NCBI RefSeq assembly: GCF_900167975.1
Contig: NZ_FUZU01000004.1
Coordinates: 744,001-808,000, forward strand
Direction of reading: 5' to 3'
Length of the DNA stretch: 64,000 bases
DNA from: Ohtaekwangia koreensis
Lineage (GTDB): Bacteria; Bacteroidota; Bacteroidia; Cytophagales; Cyclobacteriaceae
Shown: one piece after another, positions 13,195-36,779 of the stretch
Layout: every line of letters starts with the position of its first letter
How positions within the stretch are numbered: position 1 is the stretch's first letter
Notes under the pieces: model-generated
What the model was told of the DNA's origin: nothing
The model's database searches: none
Seen by the model: only the letters and a program-made list of their open reading frames with translations
Made by a program: the position numbers and the translations under genes

Positions 13195-13367
13195 GATTCG
13201 AAAGCTCAAAGCTGAAAGTTTAAGCAGAAAGCGTGTGGCTGATCATCTGCTGAATCTTTCTTGTAATGAGTATAAATTTAGTAAGTATATTTTAATTTAC
13301 TGCTGCCTGTTTTAGCCGTAAGCCAGTATAAGTGCCCGCAGCGCGTTAACATCAGGCCGATCCCCTT

Positions 13368-21528: not shown

Positions 21529-22869
21529 TTAGGCAGCTTTTAATTCCTGTTCGGTTAGTATGGTAGTCTGGTCGTTTGCATGTTGTTTCTTCATCGCACC
21601 GGCTACAAGTGATATAACCGATACCACAGTAACGGCTACGCCAATGGTAAACAAGCTATCGCGATAGGATACTTCGTTTGATGTAAATAAAAATCCTGCG
21701 AGTACTGCCCCTACATTTCCCCCGGCACCTACTATACCCGACACGGCACCTATAGCTTTCTTATTGATAAAAGGAACTACAGAATACGTAGCTCCATTGG
21801 ACATCTTGAGAAACAATGCAAACAACAACATGGTGACAATGGCCCACACCAATACATCCATAGTTGAGAAGAGCATAATGCCCAAGCCTTCAAACAACAG
21901 AAATATACTGAGGACAAGAATGCGTCCTTTCAATCCGAATTTCTTACCGGCTTTATCACCAAAAATTCCGCCGAGTGCACGGGCAAAAATGTTCATCATA
22001 CCGAACGTACCCGCGATGATACCCGCTTCTTTTAATCCTAAATTAAAATTGTCTACAAAATATAGTGTAGCGATGTTATCGATGGTGATTTCAATGCCGA
22101 AGCAAGCGCCATAGGCAAGGAAGAGAATCCATACTCTATAATCTTTACAAGCCTTAAAAAAGCTTCCTTTCTCATCACCTTTTTTTGCTTTATACTCTGC
22201 ATCTTTTTTTCGAAGGTCAGAAAGATTTCCTTCGGGTGTATCCTGTGTATAGAAATAGTATACAAAGCCCATGATAAACAATGCTACACCTGGAACAACC
22301 ATGCTATAGCGCCATGCAGTTTCATCTATATATCCTATACCTACAAAGGCTGCGAAGATCAACGGCATAACCATCAGCGTTACGCCTCCTCCCATATTAC
22401 CCCAGCCTGCAACCGTGGCGTTCGCAGTACCGACTACATTGGGAGCGAACATCACCGAAGTATGATATTGCGTAATGACGAAAGAAGCACCGATCACACC
22501 AATCGCCAGTCTGAATAACAGGAACGATTCATAACTATCCGCCAGCCCGATGAACATTACCGGTATAGATCCGAAAATCAGTAATACGGTATAGCAAATT
22601 CTTGGACCGATCTTATCGCAGAGCCAGCCAAAAATCAGACGTGCAAAAATGGTAATGGAAACCGATGCTATAATAATGTTGCCGACTTGTCCTTGCGTTA
22701 AGGCCAGGTCTTTTCGCACGATCGGCATAAGAGGAGCAATTCCAAACCATCCAAAAAAACAAAGGAAGAAAGTGATCCATGTAATATGGAACGCCCGCAT
22801 GGATGGGGATTTGAAATCCAGAAGGTTGATTTTGGTGGCTTTGCCAGCTTGTGTGATCTGATCCATCAT
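21529..22869 (-). CDS. narK: NarK-type nitrate/nitrite MFS transporter
   Basis: The 446-residue protein has 12 predicted helices. The nitrate signature GWGNMGGGVT is near residue 155 and the second repeat is GIVGAGGNVGAVLAG. The conserved nitrate-binding arginine region reads LLFRLAIGVIGASFVITQYH. It would import nitrate, or exchange nitrate and nitrite, at the inner membrane. It is a second uptake route beside NrtABD. It is the first gene of the minus-strand nitrate cluster and is preceded by an array of TACGTA sites. The gap of 158 bp to the porin gene may hold a second promoter. Confidence 0.95.
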   Translation of the reverse strand: MMDQITQAGKATKINLLDFKSPSMRAFHITWITFFLCFFGWFGIAPLMPIVRKDLALTQGQVGNIIIASVSITIFARLIFGWLCDKIGPRICYTVLLIFGSIPVMFIGLADSYESFLLFRLAIGVIGASFVITQYHTSVMFAPNVVGTANATVAGWGNMGGGVTLMVMPLIFAAFVGIGYIDETAWRYSMVVPGVALFIMGFVYYFYTQDTPEGNLSDLRKKDAEYKAKKGDEKGSFFKACKDYRVWILFLAYGACFGIEITIDNIATLYFVDNFNLGLKEAGIIAGTFGMMNIFARALGGIFGDKAGKKFGLKGRILVLSIFLLFEGLGIMLFSTMDVLVWAIVTMLLFALFLKMSNGATYSVVPFINKKAIGAVSGIVGAGGNVGAVLAGFLFTSNEVSYRDSLFTIGVAVTVVSVISLVAGAMKKQHANDQTTILTEQELKAA

Positions 22870-23180
22870 TTACGTATTTATTACGTATTAAACTTACGTA
22901 TTTGAGTCAAATTTTACGTATTAATACGTAAAAATATTTCTGAAACGGATTGCTATACGTAAAAAATCGTTTGCATTGCTACGTGTTTTATCGTACTCTT
23001 TTCTATTTGCGGAAAGATGAGTTGGCTAAAAATGCCGACAGGAGGCCGCGAAACCACAGTTTCAGCACATTTACACACAGACCGATGCGGTTTATTACAT
23101 AGAAATTGGATTTGATCTTATGGTTTTCCAGAGTAGTATAGCACCCCGTTTTAATTTTCATCTTCAATCATCATTACCGA
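22870..23180. promoter_or_regulatory. Divergent control region of narK and TonB receptor, with TACGTA array
   Basis: Five full TACGTA words occur: at 22871 and 22882 (a 7-3-7 inverted pair, 22871-22887), at 22895, and at 22915 and 22925 (a 7-2-7 pair, TACGTAT-TA-ATACGTA). A sixth lies at 22956. The 7-2-7 pair is the core of a perfect 22-bp palindrome at 22912-22933. NarL/NarP-type regulators bind 7-2-7 inverted heptamers beginning TAC. The rest of the gap, 22985-23180, shows no gene; TAATTTTC at 23152 is a possible -7 box for the receptor. Confidence 0.7.
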
Positions 23181-25547
23181 ATGAAAAGAGTACTACTATT
23201 AACTTCTTACTTTCTGATGACGTGTTCTGTTGCTTTTGCGCAGGAGACATCGCTATCGGGAAAAATTACAGATGCTGACGCACGGCCTTTGGCGGGTGCT
23301 ACCGTCCATCTTCTCAACACAAATTTTGGCGCTGTTACAGATGCCAATGGAGAATTTACAATTGCCAACGTTCCCCTGGCGAAGTATATATTTGCCGTTT
23401 CGGCAGTGGGTTATGCCAGTATACAAGGAGAGATTACAACAAGTAAGGACGCACCACCGCTGGCTATTACCCTCACGGAATCTATAACGCAACTGGACGA
23501 TGTAGTGGTAACAGCACAAAAGACAGAAGAGTCTCTTCAGAGAATACCGTTTAGTATCAGCGCCCTGTCTTCCAGAAAAGTAAATGAATATCGTCTGTGG
23601 AATATTAAAGATATAACTGCGATCGTTCCTAATTTATATTCTGCTAACCCCGGAGACAACCGGAACGTTACCTCCATCCGCGGAATAACTTCTACTTCGT
23701 ATGATCCTGCGGTAGCTACCTATATAGATGGTGTAAATCAATTCAGCCTCGACACATATATAGCACAGCTTTTTGATGTAGAGCGCATCGAAATTCTGAG
23801 AGGTCCGCAAGGAACTTTATATGGGCGCAACGCTATGGCTGGTGTAATCAACATCATTACCAAAGAACCCGGAAATACAACGCGGGGTTTTGTTGAAGCA
23901 ACGATTGGCAATTACGGTCAGCAACGTTATGGTTTTGGCGTACGTACACCTCTTATAAAAGACAAGCTGTTCTTTGGTGTTGCCGGTATGTATGATGCGA
24001 ATGATGGCTTCTATGATAATGAATACACGAATTCAAACTTCGATAAGAAGCATAACATCACAGGCAATTACTACTTAAAATATCTAGCCACCTCCAAACT
24101 TTCTGTAACGCTTAACGCGAAGCATAGCATTAACCGGAATGATGGCGCGTTTCCGCTGGCAGGAAGTATGGAGGATGCGGTCAGTAATCCGTTCAAAGTA
24201 AATCAGAATGCTACTACTACTTTGGTAGATAATGTTTTTAACAGTTCACTGAACATCAACTACGCAGGCAATGCTATCAACTTCAATTCGTTAACAACGT
24301 ATCAATCCAACTATCGCTACTATAAAGACCCGATTGACGGGGACTTCTCTCCAATTGATGGTGTTACCGTCATCAATAATTATGGTAAAGACTGGAACAA
24401 CGTAAAAGTATTTACGCAAGAGTTTAAATTCTCTTCTCCGACCACTTCATCTTCTCCTTTGAAATGGACAGCCGGTGCTTATCTATTTCACCAGGATAAC
24501 CCTGTGAAGCAAGCAACACACTTTGGGGACGATGCAGCCTATATAGATCCGAATGCAATGCCTGGTTCTGAAATTTTAAATACTTCTGATGGCAGCAGTG
24601 CTGGCGTTGCATTCTACGGTCAAGCTACATATACTTTATTTGAGAAGCTGGATTTTACAGCAGGCGTTCGTTACGACTACGAAAAGAAAAAGCAAAATGT
24701 ACATGGAGAATTTTTTATGGAGGGGTCGAGTGAACCTGTCTTCGAAACACAGCAAGACACTTCAGCTTCAACGTCTTTTAACGCCTTCTCACCCAAAGTG
24801 AGCGTAGCGTATCATTTCACCAATAACAATACAGTATATATTACGGGCAGTCGTGGTTTTCGTGCAGGTGGTTTAACGCAGTTGTCTTCTGATCCTTCAC
24901 AAGCTCCTCTATATGCGTACAAACCGGAATATAGTATCAATGCCGAAATCGGAATGAAGAACTCATTTCTGAATGACCGGTTACTGGTAAATTTTGCCGG
25001 TTACTATATTAAAGTAGACGATGCACAAGTGCCTACTTTGGTCTTGCCAGATGCCATCACTATAACGCGAAATGCAGGCGAGCTTACCAGCAAGGGAGTT
25101 GAACTGGAGATCTCCGCAATGCCTGTAAAGGGACTTCAATTTGATTACGCTTTAGGCGTGAATGATGCGACTTATAAAAAGTTAAGAGTTTCGCAGAATG
25201 GAACCGAAGTAAATCTGGATGGCAACCGCCAGATTTTTACGCCCAGACATACTTCTATGTTAGCCGCGCAATATAGCTATAGCTTCACAGGTTCACGCCT
25301 CACGTTGATAGCACGTGGCGAGTGGATGAATTTAGGAGATCAATATTTCGATCTTTATAACAACAATAAACAATCAGGCTATAGCGTGTTCAATGCCAAA
25401 GCAGGTGCAGCTTTCGGGAATTTTGAATTGATGTTCTGGGGACGTAACCTCGGAGACGAAGAGTATATTTCGTATGCGTACGATTTCGGGGCTGCGCATC
25501 TTGGCAATCCAAGAAACTATGGTGTAACCTTCCGCTGGAATTTTTAA
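23181..25547 (+). CDS. TonB-dependent outer-membrane receptor
   Basis: The 788-residue receptor begins with a signal peptide (ending SVAFAQ) and a carboxypeptidase-regulatory-like domain at about 22-105. A plug at about 115-230 (LDDVVVTAQKTEESLQRIPFS, IEILRGPQGTLYGRNAMAG, VINIITK) and a 22-strand-type barrel ending in FRWNF follow. It resembles siderophore and small-molecule receptors, not SusC, and no SusD is adjacent. It is divergent from narK and shares that control region, so it may be nitrate-regulated or simply a neighbour. The ligand is unknown. An intrinsic terminator follows. Confidence 0.9.
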   Translation: MKRVLLLTSYFLMTCSVAFAQETSLSGKITDADARPLAGATVHLLNTNFGAVTDANGEFTIANVPLAKYIFAVSAVGYASIQGEITTSKDAPPLAITLTESITQLDDVVVTAQKTEESLQRIPFSISALSSRKVNEYRLWNIKDITAIVPNLYSANPGDNRNVTSIRGITSTSYDPAVATYIDGVNQFSLDTYIAQLFDVERIEILRGPQGTLYGRNAMAGVINIITKEPGNTTRGFVEATIGNYGQQRYGFGVRTPLIKDKLFFGVAGMYDANDGFYDNEYTNSNFDKKHNITGNYYLKYLATSKLSVTLNAKHSINRNDGAFPLAGSMEDAVSNPFKVNQNATTTLVDNVFNSSLNINYAGNAINFNSLTTYQSNYRYYKDPIDGDFSPIDGVTVINNYGKDWNNVKVFTQEFKFSSPTTSSSPLKWTAGAYLFHQDNPVKQATHFGDDAAYIDPNAMPGSEILNTSDGSSAGVAFYGQATYTLFEKLDFTAGVRYDYEKKKQNVHGEFFMEGSSEPVFETQQDTSASTSFNAFSPKVSVAYHFTNNNTVYITGSRGFRAGGLTQLSSDPSQAPLYAYKPEYSINAEIGMKNSFLNDRLLVNFAGYYIKVDDAQVPTLVLPDAITITRNAGELTSKGVELEISAMPVKGLQFDYALGVNDATYKKLRVSQNGTEVNLDGNRQIFTPRHTSMLAAQYSYSFTGSRLTLIARGEWMNLGDQYFDLYNNNKQSGYSVFNAKAGAAFGNFELMFWGRNLGDEEYISYAYDFGAAHLGNPRNYGVTFRWNF

Positions 25548-25562
25548 TACTGCCTTTAAACG

Positions 25563-25607
25563 AACGGAGTGTCGTACTTCATTATCTTGTACGATACTCC
25601 GTTTTAA
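25563..25607 (+). terminator. Intrinsic terminator after the TonB receptor gene
   Basis: The stem AACGGAGT-G-TCGTAC pairs with GTACGA-T-ACTCCGTT, with one G-T wobble, and is followed by TTTT. It ends just before the small DUF3820 gene. Confidence 0.75.
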
Positions 25608-25616
25608 TATATATCT

Positions 25617-25850
25617 ATGGAACCACTTCAACCTGCTTCACCTGATTCTGAAATCCTTCGCGGGTTGGTATCCATGAAAATGCCATTCGGCAAATACAAA
25701 GGAATTGTTCTCTGCGATTTACCAGTATCTTATCTGGAGTGGTTCGCCAAGAAGGGATTCCCTCCCGGGAAACTCGGCATGATGCTCGGCACTATATATG
25801 AGATCAAGCTGAACGGACTCATGTATCTCCTGCAACCGCTGCGAAAATAA
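25617..25850 (+). CDS. DUF3820 family small protein
   Basis: This 77-residue protein has the hallmark MPFGKYKGIVLCDLP and SYLEWFAKKGFPPGKLG of DUF3820, a small family whose PFGKYKG motif also occurs in proteins linked to nucleic-acid processing. The function is not established. It starts about 14 bp after a terminator, so it probably has its own promoter within the receptor tail or is transcribed by readthrough. Confidence 0.8.
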   Translation: MEPLQPASPDSEILRGLVSMKMPFGKYKGIVLCDLPVSYLEWFAKKGFPPGKLGMMLGTIYEIKLNGLMYLLQPLRK

Positions 25851-25885
25851 CAGCCCCCATGATCATCTATAGTATAGTCACCCGG

Positions 25886-27124
25886 CTACGCTGCCTTTCT
25901 TAATTCATTTTGTGATTTTCTGGTTACCTGAAGATGTATAAAATACATCATGGCTACCGTTAGCATCATGGTGCCTACTACCGTATAGCCAAGAATACTA
26001 TAGTTCTCTAATTTACCGGATGCTGTTTGTACAACGATCAGGCCGGCTACAAATGTCGCGATGCCTCCGGAGATTTGCTGAATAGAAGAGTTGACGCCCA
26101 TGAACGCACCACGATCGGCAGGCTCTGGTACCGCTGTCATTAGCGCTGATGAAGAGATCATACGGGAAGATACCCCCACAAACATAATCACACTCACAAT
26201 TATAACGGCCCAAAATGGCGTGACTCCGAGGTTGCAATACACGACCACAATCGCTGCACTCAACATGGTACCCCAGAAGAACACGGTATATTTACCCACG
26301 GTATCGCTCAGCTTACCAATGATCGGGCCGCTGGCCATTGAAAAAATTCCGGTGATCATATATAGCATCGGAAGTTTATCCAATGGTATACCCAGGTTGT
26401 TTACACTAAATGCGCTGGCAAAGGGCATTAACATAAAGCCACCGGTAGCCAACAGTGTAGTTGCAGCGAATGCTTTCAGGTATGACTTATTCGAAACTGT
26501 TTTAGCCAAATGGACAATAGCGTTAGCTTGACTTTGAACTTGCAAGTGTGCATCGATCGGCTTCATATATAGTATAATCAAGATGCCGGTTACAATACTG
26601 ACACCAACAATCAGCATAAAGGGCGAATGCCAATCCCATTTATTAGCCATATATAGTCCGAGGGGAATGCCCAATACCTGGCTGCTTGCAAAAGACATCT
26701 GGATAAATCCCATAACGCGGCCGCGCACTTCCATTCTGAAGAGATCGGTAATGATAGCAAAACTGATCGAGCTTATTACACCACCGAATACACCGGTTAC
26801 TGTACGGGCAATCAAAAGAAAATTATAGTCTGTGGCTATACCGCAGAGAAACGTCCCAAATATAAATCCTGTATAGAAGAATAGTAAAAGTTTTTTCCTA
26901 TCAAACCGATCTGCAAAACCAGCTGCCAGTAATCCGGAAGTGCCTGCGCTAAAGGCATACGCGGAAACTACCATACCAAATTGTGCAGGTGTAATTTTCA
27001 GTGTCGGCATCAGTATCGCTCCCAAGGGCGAGAGCACCATGAAGTCAAGAACGATCGTAAACTGCAGGATGGTGAGTATAGCAATTATAAAGATCTCGTA
27101 TTTCGTGAATGTCTTTTTTTCCAT
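25886..27124 (-). CDS. MFS drug/metabolite efflux transporter
   Basis: The 412-residue, 12-helix MFS protein has the motif AGFADRFDRKKLLLF in loop 2-3 and TGVFGGVISSISFAIITDLF in helix 4-5, as in the DHA1 efflux group. It is the last gene of a probable operon with a TetR regulator and a small HMA-like protein (gaps of 45 and 29 bp). The arrangement suggests export of a compound sensed by the TetR protein; the substrate is unknown. Confidence 0.9.
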   Translation of the reverse strand: MEKKTFTKYEIFIIAILTILQFTIVLDFMVLSPLGAILMPTLKITPAQFGMVVSAYAFSAGTSGLLAAGFADRFDRKKLLLFFYTGFIFGTFLCGIATDYNFLLIARTVTGVFGGVISSISFAIITDLFRMEVRGRVMGFIQMSFASSQVLGIPLGLYMANKWDWHSPFMLIVGVSIVTGILIILYMKPIDAHLQVQSQANAIVHLAKTVSNKSYLKAFAATTLLATGGFMLMPFASAFSVNNLGIPLDKLPMLYMITGIFSMASGPIIGKLSDTVGKYTVFFWGTMLSAAIVVVYCNLGVTPFWAVIIVSVIMFVGVSSRMISSSALMTAVPEPADRGAFMGVNSSIQQISGGIATFVAGLIVVQTASGKLENYSILGYTVVGTMMLTVAMMYFIHLQVTRKSQNELRKAA

Positions 27125-27169
27125 GTTGAAAAATCAGTAGTAAATACCTCTATATAGTGGAACAAAATA

Positions 27170-27397
27170 TTAGTCAGGCAGCTCCTCACAATGAAAACCG
27201 GCCTTGCGTACCAACCTGATAACATCTGTTGTTGCTATTTGCTGCGCCTCAATTCGCAACACGCAATCTATATCACCACAGTCCACACTCCACCGGGTAA
27301 TGCGTGACTCCGCATTCAGAACCACCGCTATAGCAGGTATATCTGCTTCCAGGATGTTGGTTTTGAAAATCAATATATCTGTCAGAATTGTGTTCAT
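27170..27397 (-). CDS. Small HMA-fold-like protein without metal-binding cysteines
   Basis: This 75-residue protein has the pattern ILIFKTNI, then ITRWSVDCGDIDCVLRIEA and VIRLVRKAGFHCEEL. This beta-alpha-beta layout resembles heavy-metal-associated domains, but the CxxC pair is absent. Similar small proteins are widespread in Bacteroidota; their role is unknown. It lies between the TetR and MFS genes and is probably co-transcribed with them. Confidence 0.7.
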   Translation of the reverse strand: MNTILTDILIFKTNILEADIPAIAVVLNAESRITRWSVDCGDIDCVLRIEAQQIATTDVIRLVRKAGFHCEELPD

Positions 27398-27426
27398 AAG
27401 ATTTCAGATTTACGGTTATATAAATG

Positions 27427-28023
27427 TCAGGGTCGCAACGCTTTTATCACCAGCTTCAATGTCATGTTCATCATCTTTTCGTCAAGCACGAATTTCTCAC
27501 GATTGCTGTGCAAACCTTTTCCTGATATATGAGTCTTTACGAGCTGATATAGCGGAGAGAAGGCAACGGACCAGTAAATTTCAAATGGAAGTTTTACAAG
27601 TTCTTTTCGCTTGATTGCATTATGCGCAAACTTTCCCATCATCTCAATGAAGTTGCTGTCCATCTTTGTAAGAGCGACATTGTGATAGGGAGAATATTTT
27701 ATCTGTTCCATAAAATGCATACTCATCGGATTTTCAATGAGAAACTTTGCGCGGTTCATCCATTGTACTCTTAATCCTTCCTCGAAAGAGGCGTTAGGAT
27801 CAAAGTTTTTTAGAATAGCGTCTACCATTTTTTTCATCTCTGCGATCCATAGCTGCAGGATCAAATCATCCCGGTCTTTAAAGTAGATATAGATGGTTGC
27901 CGGTGAAACGCCAGCTGCTTTTGCCAGCTTTTGCATACTCAATCCGTCAAACCCTTTCTCTACAATCATCTGGATCGCCTTCTGGCGGATCGCTAATTCC
28001 TTACTTTCGTCCCGTGTTCGCAT
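27427..28023 (-). CDS. TetR/AcrR-family repressor
   Basis: The 198-residue regulator has an N-terminal HTH at about 20-60 (GFDGLSMQKLAKAAGVSPATIYIYFKDRDDL split over the recognition helix SPATIYIYF). The C-terminal part is an all-helical ligand domain. It probably represses its own operon with the HMA-like and MFS genes. A perfect 26-bp palindrome lies 12 bp upstream of its start. The inducing ligand is unknown. Confidence 0.92.
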   Translation of the reverse strand: MRTRDESKELAIRQKAIQMIVEKGFDGLSMQKLAKAAGVSPATIYIYFKDRDDLILQLWIAEMKKMVDAILKNFDPNASFEEGLRVQWMNRAKFLIENPMSMHFMEQIKYSPYHNVALTKMDSNFIEMMGKFAHNAIKRKELVKLPFEIYWSVAFSPLYQLVKTHISGKGLHSNREKFVLDEKMMNMTLKLVIKALRP

Positions 28024-28034
28024 TCTGAAGCAAA

Positions 28035-28060
28035 TATAAATGAATGTTCATTCATTTATA
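28035..28060. promoter_or_regulatory. Perfect palindromic operator before the tetR gene
   Basis: Arms TATAAATGAATG and CATTCATTTATA, 12 bp each and perfectly complementary, are separated by TT. The length and position are typical of TetR-family operators, and the core TGAATG-TT-CATTCA is a common form. Confidence 0.8.
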
Positions 28061-28151
28061 AAAAACTCCCGACTTTTTTTACTTATCGGGGCTTCAGATC
28101 ACGGCACAACCTTCCATCAAAGTATGTGTCGTATGTTGCCGAACATTATTT

Positions 28152-28159
28152 TATCTTCA
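28152..28159 (+). promoter_or_regulatory. Possible -7 promoter box for the NIPSNAP gene
   Basis: TATCTTCA resembles TAnnTTTG and lies 26 bp before the ATG at 28186. A TTG is 13 bp upstream, shorter than the usual spacing. Confidence 0.25.
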
Positions 28160-28185
28160 CTTGAAATACAACCAAATAAAAAAAT

Positions 28186-28962
28186 ATGAAGTTCTTTAAA
28201 GTAATGGTGCTGGTGCTTGCGGCAGTCTCCTTTAGCTATGCTGCTCCACCCAAGCGCGAGTTTTATGAAATCAAAATCTATGAAATCACAGGTGCTGATC
28301 AGGAAAAACAAATTGATGCGTATCTGAAAGATGCCTACCTCCCAGCGCTTCACCGTGCGGGTATACGTAACGTTGGGGTGTTCAAGCCTGTCCAAAAAGA
28401 CACTGCTTATTTTGGGAAAAGAATTTATGTACTAACACCGTTCTCATCACTCGAACAGTTTACGACTCTTCCCGATGTTCTTCAAAAAGACAAGCTATAT
28501 CTCGCTGCCGGTAAAAACTATATAGATGCTCCCTATAATATTCCGCCTTTCGCGAGGCTGCAATCTATATTGTTACGAGCATTCAGCTATATGCCCAAGC
28601 TTGAGACTCCAGCATTAGCCGGCCCAAAGGCAGATCGCATTTATGAATTGCGTAGCTATGAAGGTCACACTGAAAAGATCTATAGAAACAAAGTGCAGAT
28701 GTTTAATGAAGGTGGTGAGGTAACACTTTTCAAAAGGCTCGGCTTCAATGCTATATTTTATGGCGAGGTATTATCAGGAAACCGAATGCCGAACCTGATG
28801 TACATGACCTCTTTCGAAAACCAAACTTCACGTGACGAACACTGGAAAGCTTTCGGCAGTGATCCGGAATGGAAAAAATTATCGTCTATGCCAGAATATC
28901 AGAACAATGTTGCCAAGATCAATATTTACTTCCTATACCCTACCGAGTATTCTGACATTTAA
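28186..28962 (+). CDS. Secreted NIPSNAP-family protein
   Basis: The 258-residue protein has a signal peptide (about 1-20, ending SYAAPP). Two NIPSNAP-like ferredoxin-fold repeats follow: REFYEIKIYEI with YLKDAYLPALHRAGIRNVGVF, and RIYELRSYEGHTEKIYRNKVQMF with LFKRLGFNAIFYGEV and NLMYMTSFENQTSRDEHW. The biochemical role of bacterial NIPSNAP proteins is not settled. It is monocistronic and ends at a strong bidirectional terminator. Confidence 0.9.
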   Translation: MKFFKVMVLVLAAVSFSYAAPPKREFYEIKIYEITGADQEKQIDAYLKDAYLPALHRAGIRNVGVFKPVQKDTAYFGKRIYVLTPFSSLEQFTTLPDVLQKDKLYLAAGKNYIDAPYNIPPFARLQSILLRAFSYMPKLETPALAGPKADRIYELRSYEGHTEKIYRNKVQMFNEGGEVTLFKRLGFNAIFYGEVLSGNRMPNLMYMTSFENQTSRDEHWKAFGSDPEWKKLSSMPEYQNNVAKINIYFLYPTEYSDI

Positions 28963-28989
28963 TCTATCAGTATATATCTGATGAAATAA

Positions 28990-29030
28990 AAAAAGGACAC
29001 TACTTCTGGTAGTGTCCTTTTTCTTTTTTT
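28990..29030. terminator. Bidirectional intrinsic terminator
   Basis: A perfect stem GGACACTAC/GTAGTGTCC with a 5-nt loop is flanked by A-runs and T-runs on both sides. It serves the convergent NIPSNAP and PRC-barrel genes. Confidence 0.92.
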
Positions 29031-29039
29031 GACAGCGAA

Positions 29040-29462
29040 TCAATAGTTTGGATATGGAGATCCCCAATACAAATTCACGTCATTGAAATAAGTATGATCG
29101 TTCGTGTCTGGCCAGTGTGTTTTATCGAAGCCAGGAGTTTGTTTCAGATACTCTTTATCACGATTCAATACGAACAATTCTTTATCAGGATCAAGGCGAA
29201 GTTCCGCAAATGGAACCGCAAATAATTTTCCGCCTATACCGAGGAATGATCCGAAATCGATCACAGCATATTCAATATGTCCATCATTCAGATTCACCAT
29301 CAGGTTGTCAATCTTTCCAAGACTTTCTCCCTGAGGGTTCTCAACGCGATCACCAATAATAGATGACGCCGTTAATCTACGAACCGGAATGTTCGCATCA
29401 GGACCTTCATGATTCAGACCTGTACGATTGTCTATTTCATAATTCTTTTCCAGGATAGCCAT
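29040..29462 (-). CDS. PRC-barrel domain protein
   Basis: The 140-residue cytosolic protein has a PRC-barrel core (ASSIIGDRVENPQGESLGKIDNLMVNL, split by DGHIEYAVIDFGSFLGIGGKLFAVP). The short C-terminal tail has ETPGF-like and NLYWGSPYPNY segments. PRC-barrel proteins are general stability or binding modules, often stress-linked. It has no clear functional partner here. Confidence 0.85.
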   Translation of the reverse strand: MAILEKNYEIDNRTGLNHEGPDANIPVRRLTASSIIGDRVENPQGESLGKIDNLMVNLNDGHIEYAVIDFGSFLGIGGKLFAVPFAELRLDPDKELFVLNRDKEYLKQTPGFDKTHWPDTNDHTYFNDVNLYWGSPYPNY

Positions 29463-29605
29463 AGTACCTCCTTTTGTTTAGTTAGACAAATGAATTCCTG
29501 AGAATAAAATAAATAACTATGCCTGTGAAGTGAGGATTTTTATAGGAGCTATAGGGTAAGGAGTGTTTTGCACGTGGTGAGTATTTTTTTACTCACGGGG
29601 AAAGC

Positions 29606-30271
29606 TTATACCAGGTTTTCTTTTACTGCTTTGTTAACCATATCGATCGCATTGTTTACGCCAAGCTTCTTCATGATGTTGAAGCGATGTGTTTCAATGG
29701 TGCGAACGCTTTTACCAGACGCTTCAGCAATTTGTTTATTCTGCTTGCCTTCTACGATCATCTGAAGAATTTCTTTTTCTTTTCGTGTGAGGCTATAGCT
29801 GTCGTCAACTTCGATAGTGGCGTCTTTACTGGTGGTGAAAGGCTTTGTATTGAGTAAACGATTTGCGAGTACATTCGAGACAGCGCCACTGAAAAACTTA
29901 TTGCCGTTATATACTTGCTTCAACGCTTTAATAAATTCAGTTTTATCAGTGTCTTTCAGCAGATAGCCATACGCACCAGCATCGAGTGCCTGCAGTACAT
30001 ATTCTTCAGAATCATGCATGGACAGTATAACAGCTTTTGTTCCAGGCGAGTATGTCCCTAGTTTTGCAGCGGCTTCCAATCCGTTCATCTCCGGCATACG
30101 TATATCCAGCACCAGTATATCCGGGTGAAGCTTGCGTGCAGTTTCCAATGCTTCTACACCATTGCCTGCTTCGCCAATCACATCGATGTCTGCATCGGAT
30201 TCGAGCATAGCCTTTATACCATTGCGGACCAGCACATGATCATCTGCTAAAACTATATTTATCTTGGTCAT
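29606..30271 (-). CDS. NarL/LuxR-family response regulator (probable nitrate response)
   Basis: The 221-residue regulator has an N-terminal receiver with acidic D10/D11, phospho-acceptor D56 (LVLDIRMPEMNG) and switch residues LSMHDS and LLKD. The C-terminal LuxR HTH reads SLTRKEKEILQMIVEGKQ and GKSVRTIETHRFNIMKKLG. The start overlaps the stop of the sensor kinase by 4 bp (ATGA), indicating translational coupling. The NarX-like sensor, adjacent nirBD, and 7-2-7 TACGTA sites before narK, the kinase and nirB make it the likely nitrate regulator. It is NarL-like by family, not proven orthologous. Confidence 0.9.
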   Translation of the reverse strand: MTKINIVLADDHVLVRNGIKAMLESDADIDVIGEAGNGVEALETARKLHPDILVLDIRMPEMNGLEAAAKLGTYSPGTKAVILSMHDSEEYVLQALDAGAYGYLLKDTDKTEFIKALKQVYNGNKFFSGAVSNVLANRLLNTKPFTTSKDATIEVDDSYSLTRKEKEILQMIVEGKQNKQIAEASGKSVRTIETHRFNIMKKLGVNNAIDMVNKAVKENLV

Positions 30272-32127
30272 ACTTCTCCTGCTGTTGCTAATGTTTTTAC
30301 GGGGCTCCGCAATATCACTGTAGTGCCTTTTCCCAAGGTTGATTTTATATCGAGGTTGCCGTTAATATACTCGGTGCGTTCATACATATTAAAGAAACCA
30401 CGCCCAGACTCTATATTTACACTTCTTGCTTCCACCAGCTTTTCATCAAAACCATTTCCATTATCCGTTACGGAAATCAGAAGGTCAAGCTCGGTCATTT
30501 GTAATGTCACCTCAATCCGCGAAGCGCCTGAATATTTAATAGCGTTATTTATAGCTTCCTGTATAATTCGAAATATATTGTTTTCCACTTTTTGAGGGAG
30601 ACGAAAACTGGTATCACCTTCCATCGAGTATACCAATTCAATATCGGTAAGCTTACCGATCTCACGAATGAATACATTTAATGCCGCAGGCAAACCATAA
30701 TCACCAAGCACAGTAGGCTTCAGATTAAACGTTACTCTTCTTACTTCTTTAATTACCTGATTGATGAGTTGCTGAATCTCAGACAATTTATTCTGCGCAA
30801 CGTTCTCATCTTTTTTGAGATCGATCGATTCAATCTGGAATTTAAGTGAAGTGAGCATCTGTCCTATACCATCATGTATATCCATCGCCAGACGCTTGCG
30901 TTCTTCCTCTTGTCCTTCCAGGATTAACACCGAGCGAAACTTCTGCTGATTGATTTTTCTCTCAATCTCCGCTTTACTTTTCGCGCGTATATTTTGCTCA
31001 GCCAGTTTTTGTAGTGTTATGTCTGAACCGAGCACGAGCCACTCTTCTACTTCTGTCAGTTCATTCAGTGCAGGCACAATCATAACATCAACCCATCGAT
31101 CTTTACCATTTTTATCCTGGTATCGAATTATACCCTGCCATGAATGGCCATCCGAAAGCAAGTCTATCACTTCTTCCATCCATTCATCATTCAACCTTGA
31201 ATTTAAAAACAGGTCTTTCAAGGGAACGGATTTCGTTGTCAGTGTGCTGCCGGTTAACTCACTATAGAGATCGGATATAAAAATTACATTTCCGCCACGG
31301 TCAGTCTTCGCATAGATCTTGGGAGTCTCCATGGGAACGTTGACATGCGATAATTCTTCGTACGATTTTTCGAGTGAACCATATAGGGCTCCGATTTCCT
31401 TCGAGAGTTTCTTCGCGTTCTTTTCAGACGCGATCAACTGGTTAACCGTTTTATTTACTTGTACTGCTGTAGGCCTGAATACAAATAGAATTTCAAGTAT
31501 AATTACGACAATAGAAATAATGAGTAAAACATATTCGAGTGTGCTTAGTCTGTGAATCTTCAGCTTCGCTTCATGATCATATTGGAATACAATCAGGTTC
31601 ATGCCATCCAAAAATTCACGCTGGTGTTCTAATATAGTATCGATAGAGGCGCCTAATGTCTCATACGATACATCAGGGTCTTTGCTTAATTCCGTAATTA
31701 ATGTAGCGGCGCTTTGGCGTATAGCCTGGTGGTTGGCATTGATTCTGCCAAACATAGCTGCAATGGCTGCGCTGTTTTTTCCAGGGAGACGTAAACTATC
31801 ATTGCCGTTCTGTAGACCGTTGTGTGAGATTGTCCAAAGGTGAAGTGCCCCTTTCAACTCATCCAGAATTTCTACTCGCTCACTGCTGTCTTGCACAGGT
31901 TTCAATAGCAGCGCACATTTTGTAATGCGTTGACTCAACATCCGCTGACGTCCTGCTACGTTGATCACATGCGAATCACTCAACTGATTGTCAAGGTGAT
32001 TTTGAATAAGGAACTGGCCAATGATGGATACCGTAGCAATAACACTCAGCGCCATGATATACCACATGCCCAGCTTGCTGAAGCGGTTGAACTTTAACTT
32101 GCCTTCCGGATTAAATTTTAGCGTCAT
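30268..32127 (-). CDS. NarX-like nitrate sensor histidine kinase with PilJ-type sensor and PAS domain
   Basis: The 619-residue kinase has transmembrane helices at about 21-41 and 200-217 bracketing a periplasmic four-helix PilJ/NarX-type domain. Residues 54-67 (VINVAGRQRMLSQR) match the P-box by which NarX senses nitrate or nitrite. A PAS domain is at about 280-375 (IFISDLYSELTGSTL, WQGIIRYQDKNGKDRWVDVM). HisKA_3 follows (LAMDIHDGIGQ with the phospho-acceptor H), and the HATPase_c part ends with GRGFFNMYERTEYINGNLD. It is coupled to the NarL-like gene by a 4-bp overlap. TACGTA sites upstream suggest autoregulation. Confidence 0.9.
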   Translation of the reverse strand: MTLKFNPEGKLKFNRFSKLGMWYIMALSVIATVSIIGQFLIQNHLDNQLSDSHVINVAGRQRMLSQRITKCALLLKPVQDSSERVEILDELKGALHLWTISHNGLQNGNDSLRLPGKNSAAIAAMFGRINANHQAIRQSAATLITELSKDPDVSYETLGASIDTILEHQREFLDGMNLIVFQYDHEAKLKIHRLSTLEYVLLIISIVVIILEILFVFRPTAVQVNKTVNQLIASEKNAKKLSKEIGALYGSLEKSYEELSHVNVPMETPKIYAKTDRGGNVIFISDLYSELTGSTLTTKSVPLKDLFLNSRLNDEWMEEVIDLLSDGHSWQGIIRYQDKNGKDRWVDVMIVPALNELTEVEEWLVLGSDITLQKLAEQNIRAKSKAEIERKINQQKFRSVLILEGQEEERKRLAMDIHDGIGQMLTSLKFQIESIDLKKDENVAQNKLSEIQQLINQVIKEVRRVTFNLKPTVLGDYGLPAALNVFIREIGKLTDIELVYSMEGDTSFRLPQKVENNIFRIIQEAINNAIKYSGASRIEVTLQMTELDLLISVTDNGNGFDEKLVEARSVNIESGRGFFNMYERTEYINGNLDIKSTLGKGTTVILRSPVKTLATAGEV

Positions 32128-32128
32128 T

Positions 32129-32158
32129 TACGTAGGAAATTTACGTAATAAATACGGT
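32129..32158 (-). promoter_or_regulatory. TACGTA sites before the sensor kinase gene
   Basis: TACGTAG at 32129, TACGTAA at 32142 and a mismatched ATACGGT ending at 32158 (7-3-7 relative to the second site) lie directly upstream of the start at 32127. They match the sites before narK and nirB. Confidence 0.55.
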
Positions 32159-32268
32159 GAAATACTAATGCAATGTTTCCCATGCGGGAAATCAATAAAA
32201 TGAAAAATGCCAGACGATGTCGCCTGACATTCTTCTACCTAAACCTAATTTTAACAGAATGCAATTGC

Positions 32269-32652
32269 TTAGCGGGTAAATCCTATATGGACAAATCCCT
32301 CTTCAACTTTTACCGGGAAAACTGCTATACTGCACTCATCGGCATTGAGACAGTCGCCCGACTTTAATGAAAATGTTTTCTTGTGAAATGGACATGCAAC
32401 TTTGGGTTCACTTTCGTGTGAGCCAATCATACCGCGCGACAACGCCATCTGCATTTTATGCGGACAAAGATTCTGACATGCATACCATTCGTTCCGTCTT
32501 GTGAAATTGAAGACTGCGATCTGCATATCTTTATATTTCACGCAGGCTCCGCCATTCTCCGGGAAATCTTCCACACGTGCAGCCTTGAACCAAATCGAAA
32601 CTTCGCCTTCTGCAGCCGGTGTAAATGTTTTTATTTCGTTATGTAGTTCCAT
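32269..32652 (-). CDS. nirD: Nitrite reductase small subunit (Rieske-like)
   Basis: The 127-residue protein has the NirD Rieske-like fold: IWFKAARVEDFPENGGACVKY, then YACQNLCPHKMQMALSRGMIG and KVACPFHKKTFSLKSGDCL. The positions C..H and C..H are retained here (CPHK and CPFHK), so it may bind a [2Fe-2S] cluster, whereas classical NirD lacks it. With NirB it reduces nitrite to ammonium using NADH in the cytosol. It lies 23 bp downstream of nirB on the same strand. Confidence 0.93.
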   Translation of the reverse strand: MELHNEIKTFTPAAEGEVSIWFKAARVEDFPENGGACVKYKDMQIAVFNFTRRNEWYACQNLCPHKMQMALSRGMIGSHESEPKVACPFHKKTFSLKSGDCLNADECSIAVFPVKVEEGFVHIGFTR

Positions 32653-32675
32653 CGTGTTAACTATATATATACCTT

Positions 32676-35171
32676 TTATTTATTCCAATCGATCGGAGCT
32701 TTTTGTCCGCGCATATCTACATACTGAATGGTAGGATCTGTTTCTTCGGCATTAATAAAATGCTTGAACTTTGCGCGAAGCTTCGGATCTTCTACTACTT
32801 TCTTCCACTCACAATGGTAGTTTGCAATCAGTGTACCCATATCTTTTTCAAGTTCTTCACCGATGCCAAGCGAATCATTTACGATTACATCATAGAGATA
32901 TTCTAATCCGCCTTCCATTTTATTTAACCAGGTGGCGGTACGTGTCAACGGATCGGCCGTTTTTATATAGAACATCAGGAAGCGATCTATATACCGGATA
33001 CAGGTTTCGGTATCTACATCTGTTACCAACAATTTAGCGTGCTGCGGTCTCGCACCACCATTGCCGCACACATATAGGTTCCAGCCTTTATCCGTAGCGA
33101 TAATGCCAAAATCTTTTGACTGTGCTTCTGCGCATTCGCGGATACATCCGGATACTGCTCCTTTTAATTTATGCGGAGCACGCAACCCTTTATAGCGATC
33201 TTCCACATATACTGCAAATGAAACTGAATCCTGTACACCGTAGCGACACCATGTAGAACCGACACAACTTTTAATGGTACGCAATGCTTTACCATATGCG
33301 TGTCCACTTTCAAAACCTTCTGCAATAAGTTCTTCCCATATATCCGGAAGCTGATCCATGTGCGCACCAAACATATCAATCCGTTGTCCACCTGTGATTT
33401 TCGTATATAAATTATACTTCTCAGCAATGCGGCCTATAGCAGAAAGTTTTTGTGGTGTGATCTCTCCCCCGGCAATGCGTGGCACAACGGAGTAGGTACC
33501 CCCACGTTGAATGTTGGCGAGGTAACGATCATTGGAATCCTGAATGGTATCCTGGCTTACTACAAGTTCATTCCATATACTGGACATCAGCGAGGCAACG
33601 GCAGGTTTGCATACCTCACAACCGTCACCTGCGCCATGGGTATTCAAAAGCTGGTCGTAGCTTTTTATACCCTTCACTTTAATGATATCATACAACTCTT
33701 GTCTGGTGTAGTTGAAGTGTTCGCAAAGTGATTTTTTTATAGTGTGTCCAAGGGATTGCAGTGTGATTTTCAATAAGTCATTCACCATGGGTGTACATCC
33801 GCCACAACCGGTACATGCCTTTGTTGATTTTTTAATTTCGTCCAATGACTTTACACCACAGGATGTGATTTGTTCTACCAACGCGCCTTTGGTAATATTC
33901 TCGCACGAACAAATTTGTGCTGTATCCGGTAAACCTTTTACTCCGGCTGCTTCATCGTTTACTTTACCGCCTCCGCCAACGATCAACGTTTCCGGATTTT
34001 CAGGCAGTATCATTTTATTCATCACCATCTGGTGAAGTATATTATACTGGCTAGCATCTCCAATGAGAATACCGCCCAATAAATACTTACCGTCTTCCGA
34101 TATGTTGATGCGTTTATAAGTACCCTTGTGTTTGTTCTTAAAAACTATAGGTATATGTGGTGTTGCATCACAGAACGGATCTCCGAAACTTCCTACATCT
34201 ACCCCGATCAATTTTAGTTTCGTAGACATATCAAAACCAGTAAATTGTTTTGAAGTGTCATCCGTGATTTGGCGTGCTACTATATCTGCCATGTCATACC
34301 CCGGTGCCACCAATCCATATACCATATTGTTGTGTACAACGGCTTCGCCTATAGCATATATATTTTCATCGGTTGTGCGCATGTAGTTATCTACTACAAT
34401 ACCGCCACGCGGATGAACATTCAGCAACGTTGCCTTTGCCAGCTCATCGCGCGGACGGATGCCTGCAGAGATGACAAGCATCTCTATATCTAATTTTGTA
34501 TCGTCAGCAAACAACAATCCTTCGAGCTTGCCATTGCCTTCAATTTTTTTCGTGCTCTTGCCTGTATGTATAGTGATTCCTAACTGCGTGAGTTTATGCG
34601 CCAGAATTTCAGAGGCAGCATCATCGATTTGCCGGGGCATGAGGCGTGATGCAAACTCTACTACATGTGTTTCAAGTCCGAGATCCAATAATGCTTTTGC
34701 TGCTTCCAGTCCGAGAAGACCTCCGCCCATAACAGCACCGCGTTTTACCTTTTGTGCATACTCGGTGATCTGATTAAGATCTTCAATTGTACGGTATACA
34801 AATACACCATCGCGTTCAACACCTTCTATGGAAGGAACGAAGGCGCTGGAGCCCGTAGCGAGTACGAGATAATCGTATCGGTCTGACCGCCCGGTATGTG
34901 TACGAATTGTTTTATCGATCCTGTTTATTTCCGTCACCAACTCTCCGGTGTGGAGCTCAATGTTATTCTCGGAATACCATGTTGCAGGCGCCATCAACAA
35001 ATCATCTGCTGTTGAGCCAGAGAAATAACTACTCAGATGAACGCGGTCATACGCAGGTCGCGGTTCCTCTCCATATACAATGATCTCAACTGCGGCCGAA
35101 CGGTTACGTAGTTTTTCGCAAAACTTGTAACCAACCATTCCATTTCCTACTACGATGATCCTCTTCTTCAT
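32676..35171 (-). CDS. nirB: NADH-dependent assimilatory nitrite reductase large subunit
   Basis: The 831-residue protein is near the usual NirB length. An FAD/NAD(P) reductase unit comes first (IIVVGNGMVGYKFCEKL, MGGGLLGLEAAKAL). Two BFD-type [2Fe-2S] modules follow near 415-530 (CSCENITKG, CTGCGGCTPMV, CEVCKPAV). The siroheme half-domains follow, with cluster ligands in CVGSTWC and CIREC. It reduces nitrite to ammonium with NirD. Siroheme would come from CobA, encoded divergently at 35286 across a shared control region with TACGTA sites. Confidence 0.96.
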   Translation of the reverse strand: MKKRIIVVGNGMVGYKFCEKLRNRSAAVEIIVYGEEPRPAYDRVHLSSYFSGSTADDLLMAPATWYSENNIELHTGELVTEINRIDKTIRTHTGRSDRYDYLVLATGSSAFVPSIEGVERDGVFVYRTIEDLNQITEYAQKVKRGAVMGGGLLGLEAAKALLDLGLETHVVEFASRLMPRQIDDAASEILAHKLTQLGITIHTGKSTKKIEGNGKLEGLLFADDTKLDIEMLVISAGIRPRDELAKATLLNVHPRGGIVVDNYMRTTDENIYAIGEAVVHNNMVYGLVAPGYDMADIVARQITDDTSKQFTGFDMSTKLKLIGVDVGSFGDPFCDATPHIPIVFKNKHKGTYKRINISEDGKYLLGGILIGDASQYNILHQMVMNKMILPENPETLIVGGGGKVNDEAAGVKGLPDTAQICSCENITKGALVEQITSCGVKSLDEIKKSTKACTGCGGCTPMVNDLLKITLQSLGHTIKKSLCEHFNYTRQELYDIIKVKGIKSYDQLLNTHGAGDGCEVCKPAVASLMSSIWNELVVSQDTIQDSNDRYLANIQRGGTYSVVPRIAGGEITPQKLSAIGRIAEKYNLYTKITGGQRIDMFGAHMDQLPDIWEELIAEGFESGHAYGKALRTIKSCVGSTWCRYGVQDSVSFAVYVEDRYKGLRAPHKLKGAVSGCIRECAEAQSKDFGIIATDKGWNLYVCGNGGARPQHAKLLVTDVDTETCIRYIDRFLMFYIKTADPLTRTATWLNKMEGGLEYLYDVIVNDSLGIGEELEKDMGTLIANYHCEWKKVVEDPKLRAKFKHFINAEETDPTIQYVDMRGQKAPIDWNK

Positions 35172-35285
35172 TGCAATCGTTTTAAGTAATTCGAAGCCAA
35201 TTTTTAAGTAATTATACGTAAATATTCAGTACTGGCAAGCAGTTTAAAAGATAATTTACGTATTATTACGTATAAAATTTAAGTA
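35172..35285. promoter_or_regulatory. Divergent nirB-cobA control region with TACGTA pair and TTTAAGTAAT repeats
   Basis: A 7-2-7 inverted pair (TACGTAT-TA-TTACGTA) occupies 35257-35272, and a single TACGTAA is at 35215. In addition, the 10-mer TTTAAGTAAT occurs exactly three times, at 35181, 35203 and 35278, the last overlapping the cobA ATG. The TACGTA pair is a likely NarL-like site; the meaning of the 10-mers is unknown. Confidence 0.65.
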
Positions 35286-36077
35286 ATGGCTGACGTGCAG
35301 AAGACAAAGACCGTAACCATGGTAGGAGCCGGTCCTGGTGATCCCGAGTTAATCACTGTTAAAGGAGTGAAAGCGATTCAAAAGGCTGATGTCATTTTAT
35401 ATGATGCGCTGGCTTCCGAAGAGTTACTTGAATTTGCCAAGCCTTCCTGCAAACGGGTATATGTCGGAAAACGAAAGGGCAAAAAAGAATTCTCGCAGGA
35501 AGAGATCAATCAACTGATTGTATTTTATGCGCAACGCTATACGAACGTTGTTCGGCTGAAAGGTGGTGACTCTTATGTATTCGGTCGCGGCCATGAGGAA
35601 CTTGAATATGCTATGCGCCGTGGTATACATGTGGAAGTCATTCCAGGACTTTCAAGTGCACTTGCAGCGCCTGCTTCCTGTGGTATACCGTTGACAAAAC
35701 GTGGCGTTAATGAAAGTTTCTGGGTTATAACAGGTATGTTATCGTCAGGAGAAATGTCAAAAGATATAGCCCTCGCAGTACAATCGTCAGCGACTGTTGT
35801 TATACTGATGGGCATGACGCACCTCGAACAAATCGCTAAACTTTTTCAACAGGGACGATCACCTTTAGAGCCGGCCGCAGTAGTTCATCATGCGACTACC
35901 AGGAATCAAAAAGTAGTACGCGGTACAGTGAGCACAATCTATCAATTGGTACAGGAACAACAGGTCAGTTCGCCTGCTGTTATTGTCATTGGCAATGTTG
36001 TTAATGAAAGTTATTTGCTCGATGAATTTACAGAAAGGTATATACAAACCGCTTCGGTGACCTCACATCAAAAATGA
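35286..36077 (+). CDS. cobA: Uroporphyrinogen-III C-methyltransferase
   Basis: This 263-residue SUMT enzyme has the family motifs VGAGPGDPELITVKG, VVRLKGGDSYVFGRGHEE, EVIPGLSSALAAPASCGIPLTKRG and VILMGMTHLEQI. It makes precorrin-2 from uroporphyrinogen III with SAM, the first step to siroheme, the NirB cofactor. It is a stand-alone SUMT; the CysG-type oxidase/ferrochelatase part is not fused and is not in this window. It is divergent from nirB across a 114-bp control region. Confidence 0.95.
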   Translation: MADVQKTKTVTMVGAGPGDPELITVKGVKAIQKADVILYDALASEELLEFAKPSCKRVYVGKRKGKKEFSQEEINQLIVFYAQRYTNVVRLKGGDSYVFGRGHEELEYAMRRGIHVEVIPGLSSALAAPASCGIPLTKRGVNESFWVITGMLSSGEMSKDIALAVQSSATVVILMGMTHLEQIAKLFQQGRSPLEPAAVVHHATTRNQKVVRGTVSTIYQLVQEQQVSSPAVIVIGNVVNESYLLDEFTERYIQTASVTSHQK

Positions 36078-36191: not shown

Positions 36192-36779
36192 ATGCCATTT
36201 AACGAACGTCTTGACAAAGCCTTCATTACATTTGACGCCTATAATGCCAATGATCCTCATCAAGAAATAGTCAACGGAGAATCTCAACCGAAAGAATTAA
36301 TGTATGGTCAGCGCATGACGGAATGGTTGAATAAGTTTGCTCCGGATGCTCCTGAATATTTACAACTTGCCGCGCGCTGTCAACATATAGGCCGTTGGGA
36401 AATACCACGAAGCTCGTATCCGATGGATAAGAAAGGTTATCTACAATGGCGCAACGCTGAGAAAGTACATCATGCAAAAATCGCTGAGCAAATTCTGCTA
36501 AGCTGTCGCTATGATACTGATACTATAGAAAAAGTAAAATTTCTTTTGTTGAAGAAAGAGCTTAAGACAAATCCGGATACGCAATTGCTGGAAGATGTAA
36601 TATGTCTTGTCTTCATTCAATATTACCTGGAAGACTTTGCATCACTACATGACGATGCTAAGGTGGTTGATATTCTTCAGAAGACTTTGAAAAAAATGTC
36701 TGCCCGGGCAATTACCGAAGCTGGTAAAATTCCGGTCTCCACAAAAGTGGGAACATTAATTGCCCAGGCAGTAGGATAA
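36192..36779 (+). CDS. DUF4202 family protein
   Basis: The 195-residue cytosolic protein matches DUF4202: MPFNERLDKAFITFDAYNAND, QRMTEWLNKFAPDAPEYLQL, AARCQHIGRWEIPRSSYPMDKKGYLQWR and DVICLVFIQYYLEDFA. The Q-H-I-G-R-W and Y-P-M-D-K-K pattern resembles a helical HD-like hydrolase core. It follows cobA by 115 bp on the same strand. From memory, DUF4202 often accompanies nitrite reductase and siroheme genes, so a role in nitrite assimilation is plausible. Its biochemical function is unknown. Confidence 0.85.
   Translation: MPFNERLDKAFITFDAYNANDPHQEIVNGESQPKELMYGQRMTEWLNKFAPDAPEYLQLAARCQHIGRWEIPRSSYPMDKKGYLQWRNAEKVHHAKIAEQILLSCRYDTDTIEKVKFLLLKKELKTNPDTQLLEDVICLVFIQYYLEDFASLHDDAKVVDILQKTLKKMSARAITEAGKIPVSTKVGTLIAQAVG

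Follow-up and report, generated by a model that had tools for sequence, protein, structure and literature searches.

The nitrate regulators NarX-NarL and NarQ-NarP, the FixLJ pair of rhizobia, the regulators SsrB and EsrB, the MctR/MctS pair and the chemoreceptor McpN of P. aeruginosa are the described systems with which the locus of this study was compared. NarL sites have a 7-2-7 layout and are 16 bp long. Systematic evolution of ligands by exponential enrichment gave two motifs for FixJ, GTAGTTTCCC and GTAMGTAG, and its fixK site TAAGTAATTTCCCTTA reads TAAGTA-ATTT-CCCTTA (PMC4999443). The fixK promoter of R. palustris bears GTACGTAG (PMC13327599). The NarL operator is described as TACYYMT, with a strict outer TAC and a pyrimidine at position 4 (PMC4886647), and the SsrB site as a tail-to-tail palindrome of 18 bp with a spacer of 4 bp (PMC2837388). 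The N-box of McpN is [IVL]-[ND]-x-A-G-x-Q-R-M-L-[ST]-Q, and its arginine binds nitrate (PMC6381276). Here we analyse a 64,000-nucleotide stretch of the Ohtaekwangia koreensis genome (the window; contig NZ_FUZU01000004.1, positions 744,001 to 808,000). It contains a nitrate gene cluster with TACGTA sites in its promoters, a sensor histidine kinase (30268-32127, minus strand) and a response regulator (29606-30271, minus strand). A conserved TA(A/C)GTA-N4-TAC(G/T)TA is present at the nitrate-assimilation genes of many Bacteroidota, and a two-component switch most likely binds there.

The locus shares with FixLJ the half-site TAMGTA, the 16-bp 6-4-6 layout and the type of recognition helix. In some relatives an operator also precedes a Crp/Fnr gene, as FixJ controls fixK. 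Unlike the oxygen sensor FixL, the kinase carries the N-box of nitrate sensors, and the targets are genes of nitrate assimilation. The own genome has no such Crp/Fnr gene, and FixJ has the second site class GTAGTTTCCC (PMC4999443). With NarX-NarL and NarQ-NarP the locus has in common a HisKA_3 kinase, a nitrate sensor domain structurally related to that of McpN, a REC-LuxR regulator, and nirB and narK as targets. It differs from them in the strict and relaxed positions of the operator (TACYYMT in NarL), in the PAS domain of the kinase, in the assimilatory nature of the genes and in its low model scores. McpN resembles the kinase in its N-box with the nitrate-binding arginine and in a profile match to 6gcv, but it is a chemoreceptor without a kinase. 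SsrB and EsrB provide the nearest helix-turn-helix (HTH) domains in the PDB; their signals and targets are different, and the likeness is one of layout, half-site letters aside. MctR and MctS are the best-scoring NCBIfam models for the regulator (186/300 bits, score/cut-off) and the kinase (133/700), but both scores are below the cut-offs.

Results

All of the sites named in an initial annotation, which had read them as NarL-type heptamers marking a nitrate regulon, were found in the window; no strand was assigned to them. Upstream of narK (21529-22869, minus strand), the 16-bp operator candidate TACGTATTAATACGTA (22915-22930) is a 7-2-7 pair and forms the middle of the 22-bp perfect palindrome TTTTACGTATTAATACGTAAAA (22912-22933). 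A further TACGTA pair with an 11-bp offset (7-3-7), TACGTATTTATTACGTA, occupies 22871-22887, and lone TACGTA half-sites are at 22895-22900 and 22956-22961. The gap between nirB and cobA holds the 7-2-7 pair TACGTATTATTACGTA (35257-35272), 13 bases from the cobA start codon, and a second 16-bp candidate TAAGTAATTATACGTA (35205-35220) that was absent from the initial annotation. TAAGTA half-sites lie close to the nirB start (35183-35188) and at the cobA start (35280-35285). Two or three sites had been expected before the sensor kinase; two are exact, at 32129-32134 and 32142, and the third is the degenerate TACGGT (32153-32158), which stands at an 11-bp offset from the second (32142-32158). The genes narK and the kinase (sites at 22871 and 32129) both begin TACGTAAATG, and a half-site is one base from the start codon in each.

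The window has 29 copies of TACGTA where 12.9 would be expected, and 0 of 100 shuffles have as many. Eleven of the 29 are in three intergenic regions of 566 bp in total, those of narK, the kinase and nirB/cobA. The genome-wide scan of paired sites that had been suggested came out favourably. The 7.24-Mb genome contains five matches to TACGTAN{3,7}TACGTA, two of which overlap, and all five are in the narK, kinase and nirB/cobA promoters of this cluster. The total number of paired sites is not unusual because a control with the reversed pattern has seven matches in the genome; the clustering of the paired sites is. The refined pattern TAMGTAN4TACKTA is found at three places in the genome, 3/3 in this cluster (including 35205-35220), with four for the control. 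With W4 in place of N4 (TAMGTAW4TACKTA) there are still three places, with one for the control and an expectation of 0.01 in the window. The earlier observation is real and is stronger than first stated.

Relatives were collected in two sets. The kinase was searched in 148 genomes of the same family (E up to 1e-60) and was found in 49 of them, at 52 places. The family loci comprise the 51 kinase places outside the own genome (L066-L116) and nine unlinked paired-site places (L117-L125), the latter taken from at least 14 listed (left out were G045:C14, two of G134, G012:C1:5457030 and G067:C22). The named set uses 54 of 80 loci, from Flavobacteriaceae, Cyclobacteriaceae, lewinellas, Flammeovirga and others. 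The 26 dropped loci are two duplicates of the family set, L156 (a contig with neither nirB nor a pair) and 23 kinases that matched mainly in the kinase core or had another layout, including Firmicutes and the Spirosomaceae-type L190, L194 and L204. The two sets are not fully independent because L128 is also in the family set (G025). Genes in the fetched loci were labelled by tblastn with the window proteins.

In these relatives TACGTA sites precede nirB/cobA, the kinase, and the narK/porin/nrt/nasC operons. The 141 promoter regions of the family set contain 238 TACGTA against 8.4 expected, a density of 8.2 per kb compared with 0.21 outside them in the loci; the 179 regions of the named set contain 312 against 14.4 expected, or 6.7 per kb against 0.25 elsewhere. 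TACGTA is the most over-represented of the 4,096 hexamers in the promoters of both sets. At least one TACGTA precedes nirB in 41/42 family and 51/53 named promoters. The corresponding counts are 22/40 and 3/7 for the kinase, 1/4 and 31/36 for a separately placed regulator gene, 9/15 and 24/27 for narK, 17/21 and 5/21 for the porin, and 3/18 and 11/29 for nasC. The most frequent distance from site to site is 10, and further maxima follow at 20-24, 31-33 and 41-45, roughly one helical turn apart. The nine unlinked places, all in kinase-bearing genomes, lie before narK or the porin (five) or before a Crp/Fnr gene preceding porin and nrt genes (four); among twelve further loci (L219-L230), eight lie before narK or the porin.

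The refined site goes together with the kinase. TAMGTAW4TACKTA was found in 45/49 family genomes with the kinase (128 sites, control 20) and in 30/99 without it (48 sites), and at least two refined sites are present in 41/49 and 10/99, respectively. The nirB gene itself is distributed like the kinase (48/49 genomes with it, 5/99 without); p values computed for these contrasts take no account of relatedness. Among the latter five, which fall below the kinase threshold, G046 has a fragment of the kinase and carries TACGTA four times before nirB; in the other four no TACGTA stands before nirB, narK, porin or nasC. A sample of 395 genomes from the phylum includes 17 with a long kinase match, and 16 of these have at least three refined sites.

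The arrangement of the half-sites distinguishes between a NarL-type and a FixJ-type operator. Besides TACGTA, the hexamers TACTTA and TAAGTA are enriched in the promoters. At the 10-bp offset, a degenerate partner reads TAAGTA when it is the left half-site or TACTTA when it is the right one, in 35/35 family and 54/55 named cases. The NarL-like order TACTTA-N4-TAAGTA occurs 0 times in both sets, and TAAGTA-N4-TACTTA occurs 3 times in the family set and 31 times in the named set. A de novo motif obtained with random starts from 42 family and 53 named nirB promoters reads TA[C/A]GTA-W4-TAC[G/T]TA. Its outer position is C 0.80/A 0.18 for the family promoters and C 0.49/A 0.48 for the named ones, and the inner G is 0.98-0.99. 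The inner GTA/TAC is strict and the outer C/G is relaxed, which is the reverse of TACYYMT in NarL; position 4 is G in this motif and Y in that of NarL. On the other hand, TAMGTA is contained in GTAMGTAG of FixJ and is the left half of the fixK site, and the 4-bp spacer and the 16-bp layout are shared. By its letters the operator resembles that of FixJ more than that of NarL. A NarL-type operator was rejected on the orientation test and the de novo motif. One part of the initial annotation that stood is that the motif differs from the enterobacterial heptamer and is common to many Bacteroidota; a NarL-like TAC start as the conserved feature was not supported.

The kinase has PilJ, PAS, HisKA_3 and HATPase domains. 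Its residues 55-66, INVAGRQRMLSQ (31930-31965, minus strand), match the published N-box pattern exactly. A profile of 12 kinase N-termini matched the nitrate-bound McpN domain 6gcv with an E value of 1.4e-8. A relaxed N-box is present in 44/51 family and 52/54 named kinases. The kinase also has a PAS domain, but the N-box points to nitrate as the probable signal. Second-copy kinase/regulator pairs were seen at L110-L113, where nirB is not nearby and the N-box arginine is lost (AGRQSML, AGRQNML, AGQQAML); TACGTA sites nonetheless stand beside these pairs, which are perhaps paralogues with another ligand.

The regulator consists of a REC domain and a LuxR/GerE-type HTH and is the proposed operator-binding protein. 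Scores with NCBIfam models were all below the cut-offs, both for the regulator (NarL 155/250, NarP 130/343 and FixJ 75/255 bits) and for the kinase (NarX 74/578 and NarQ 84/553 bits). The claim of a NarX/NarL-like pair stood in so far as a two-component pair is encoded and goes with the sites, and was not supported in that the scores with the NarL, NarX and NarQ equivalog models fall short. The best PDB match of the whole regulator is E. coli NarL (E 7.5e-36). When the HTH is taken by itself, EsrB, SsrB and VraR come nearest in the PDB, and FixJ (7.8e-6) is ahead of NarL (4.1e-4). The recognition helix SVRTIETHRFNIM (residues 188-200; 29672-29710, minus strand) is FixJ-like: the helix of FixJ is SPRTVEVHRANVM, and the shared form is SxRT[VI]E[VT]HRxN[VI]M. 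The aligned stretch of NarL is stvkvhvkhml, with K-V-H-V-K where the window has E-T-H-R-F. Nearly every regulator in the two sets retains E-T-H-R or E-V-H-R. The Spirosomaceae-type regulators of L190, L194 and L204 read RTVSNHRAN, RTVDNHRAN and NTVANQRAS and are without the E-T/V-H-R-F helix, and no TACGTA pairs were found in these loci. This contrast between helix and site is suggestive only because the nirB promoter is visible in L204 alone.

Genes of the window were named with Pfam and NCBIfam models. On the minus strand, narK encodes a nitrate/nitrite transporter of the major facilitator superfamily (TIGR00886, above the cut-off) and is a member of the regulon. It is followed by an outer-membrane porin-like protein of the Alginate_exp family (19991-21370); no site was found in the 158-bp gap between porin and narK, and the two genes would form one operon. 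Further on are an nrtA-like substrate-binding protein (18743-19978; a weak match named from its position beside nrtB and nrtC), the permease nrtB (17807-18664) and the ATPase nrtC/D (16957-17769) of a nitrate ATP-binding cassette transporter. Then come a fused 1176-aa protein of a NasC-like assimilatory nitrate reductase and a NirB-like N-terminal half (13368-16898; NasC model 539/1100 bits, below the cut-off), and a NIR_SIR_ferr and rubredoxin protein (11743-13209) that often follows nasC in relatives. The large and small subunits of the NADH nitrite reductase, nirB (32676-35171), a regulon member, and nirD (32269-32652), are also on the minus strand. The divergent regulon member cobA (35286-36077, plus strand) encodes the uroporphyrinogen-III methyltransferase that serves siroheme for NirB, and a DUF4202 protein (36192-36779, plus strand) is often encoded next to nirBD, cobA and the kinase in the two sets of relatives. 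The genes behind the paired sites of the own genome are assimilatory, and the cluster reads as nitrate assimilation with siroheme synthesis for NirB. That the sites mark a regulon of nitrate genes, alongside the encoded two-component pair, is supported. The TonB receptor at 23181-25547 is not claimed as a member, as no such label appeared at the nitrate promoters of relatives.

Placement was counted in 76 loci fetched from kinase-bearing genomes. These hold 101 refined sites, 73 of them in the 51 kinase loci and 28 in loci fetched for a site or for nirB. A labelled nitrate gene starts at most 500 bp behind 85 of the 101 sites, and no site is inside one. Several of the remaining sites lie before other genes. 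One operator is 52 bp before hemA (L101, 6763), whose glutamyl-tRNA reductase would feed siroheme synthesis. In three genomes of one genus (L224 6929, L225 6356, L226 6826) an operator is about 120 bp before citrate synthase, a possible link to carbon supply. Two operators at L228 (6261 and 6425) are ahead of a single-domain globin gene, possibly for nitric oxide detoxification.

The Bacteroidota -7 box is TAnnTTTG. In the named set it was found near operators 107 times against 19 in shuffles. At 47 sites it begins exactly 6 bp past the centre, and distances of 16-19, 26-27 and 36-39 are also favoured; it is present in 37/53 named nirB promoters. The signal is weak in the family set (29 against 14 in shuffles, two at +6, and 0/47 nirB promoters). 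In the window, narK has a near form of the box, TACGTATTAATACG-TAAAATTTG, and no clear TAnnTTTG was found in the nirB promoter. Among 59 composite named sites, TTTG at -33 spacing occurs in three, with about three expected from a base-composition estimate only. The flavobacterial arrangement fits an activator that would replace the -33 contact; the position would also suit repression.

A Crp/Fnr gene accompanies the nitrate genes in 29 of the 170 sources searched among relatives (3/51 family and 21/54 named loci). TACGTA or a refined site lies at most 200 bp before 18 of these 29 genes, and at the four unlinked places a gap of 12-18 bp separates the operator from a Crp/Fnr gene that has porin and nrt genes behind it. 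Operators shortly before a Crp/Fnr gene beside nitrate genes were viewed at L119 9219, L121 8531, L122 8418, L123 9052 and L091 17379. No Crp/Fnr gene of this kind was found in the own genome; it is present in 15/148 family genomes, 13 of them with the kinase. By analogy, a second tier like FixJ-FixK is possible in some relatives.

Discussion

We consider it likely that nitrate assimilation is controlled here by a regulator that uses a FixJ-type operator and is driven by a nitrate-sensing kinase. The kinase would sense nitrate in the periplasm through the N-box of its PilJ domain and phosphorylate the regulator. Dimers of the regulator would then bind the 16-bp dyads TA[C/A]GTA-W4-TAC[G/T]TA, often in helically phased arrays. 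The predicted targets are the narK operon, which would run on through porin and nrtABC to nasC, as well as nirBD, cobA and the operon of the kinase and regulator themselves; most likely the regulator activates them.

One rival keeps the protein and changes the site: a NarL-type regulator would read a heptamer of the NarL type, in which the outer TAC is strict and which is little changed in Bacteroidota. The PDB match of the whole protein to NarL, the 16-bp length equal to that of the NarL 7-2-7 site and a plausible nitrate signal speak for it. However, the relaxed outer C, the strict inner GTA, the missing TACTTA-N4-TAAGTA order, the E-T-H-R-F helix in place of K-V-H-V-K, and the better HTH scores with EsrB, SsrB, VraR and FixJ make it unlikely. 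More weight belongs to the rival that concerns the direction of control. The regulator could repress the nitrate genes until nitrate relieves the repression, or repress only some of them, for instance the kinase operon. Operators 1-40 bp before several start codons, and their overlap with the likely -7 box in flavobacteria, would agree with this. The composite flavobacterial promoters, mostly without a -33 box (TTTG in 3/59), suit an activator instead, a point that comes without a comparison with ordinary promoters; we regard repression as possible, with activation clearly favoured.

That another transcription factor binds the sites is very improbable. Binding by the response regulator is deduced from sequence, and the TetR protein at 27427-28023 or a Crp/Fnr protein could take its place, the latter being encoded in the nitrate cluster of some relatives. 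TetR was rejected as the binder, as it occurs in 1/140 loci (L066). The Crp/Fnr protein is not a general binder because most kinase-bearing genomes are without it (it is absent from the own genome and from 133/148 family genomes) and because G075 has a Crp/Fnr gene and nirB, no kinase, and no TACGTA in its nitrate promoters. Least probable of all is that the sites are a repeat, an RNA hairpin or a methylation or restriction signal and no operator. This would be in line with two kinase-less Flavobacterium genomes, in which TACGTATAAATACGTA looks like a dispersed element. Kinase-bearing genomes, however, show the sites at many promoters of one pathway, with variable spacers, a constant 10-bp offset and helical phasing.

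Several observations weigh against a FixJ-type operator read by a nitrate-responsive pair. The kinase promoter of the window has offsets of 13 and 11 bp only. Four kinase-bearing family genomes have no refined site, and the 30 kinase-less ones mentioned above have it; in the phylum sample, about 41 of the 378 genomes without a long kinase match, counted by eye, have at least three refined (N4) sites. In Flavobacterium, G229 carries 14 sites and G430 carries 16, apparently dispersed, and neither has a kinase match. For 16 of the 101 placed sites no labelled gene starts in the next 500 bp: they lie before the Crp/Fnr gene (six), hemA (one), citrate synthase (three) and the globin gene (two), 533 bp before narK (one) or behind the regulator without a recognised gene in three same-genus genomes (three). 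Sites that adjoin start codons would suit repression as well. As for the signal, two PilJ chains (E 1.6e-10 and 3.9e-10) head the PDB matches of the sensor domain, with 6gcv behind them; these two chains outscore it in total score, spread over two repeats. PilJ's own domains are described as being without an N-box and binding no nitrate (PMC6381276). Therefore, it is the N-box that carries the argument for nitrate. Only 25/51 family and 25/54 named kinases have it in its exact form, and the same-genus kinase L066 reads AGTQRYKSQ at this position.

In G229 and G430, four 3-kb loci were viewed (L235-L238). They contain TACGTATTTATACGTA-type sites, often as doubles 32-33 bp apart, which look like a dispersed element or another regulon. 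A motif exclusive to nitrate genes is refuted by these kinase-less genomes and by two viewed sites of G011 that are not before nitrate genes.

A broader proposal is tentative, and we hold it with less than even confidence. The nitrate-sensing kinase and its FixJ-type operator may make up a nitrate regulon of a separate kind, and Bacteroidota may have a promoter class in which the regulator site and the -7 box form one composite, TAMGTA-W4-TACKTA-nn-TTTG, without a -33 box, where the regulator would replace the -33 contact in flavobacteria and Crp/Fnr would be an optional second tier.

An aimed search of the open-licence literature found, among the papers listed, no report on the control of nitrate assimilation in Bacteroidota, which are common marine and soil polymer degraders. 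Across about 100 loci, this study provides a regulator with its targets, a consensus for the operator and a likely signal. Therefore, the nitrate response of Bacteroidota is now directly testable. The locus also suggests that the type of sensor is separable from the type of operator, as a nitrate sensor of the NarX/McpN kind would here be combined with a DNA site of the FixJ kind.

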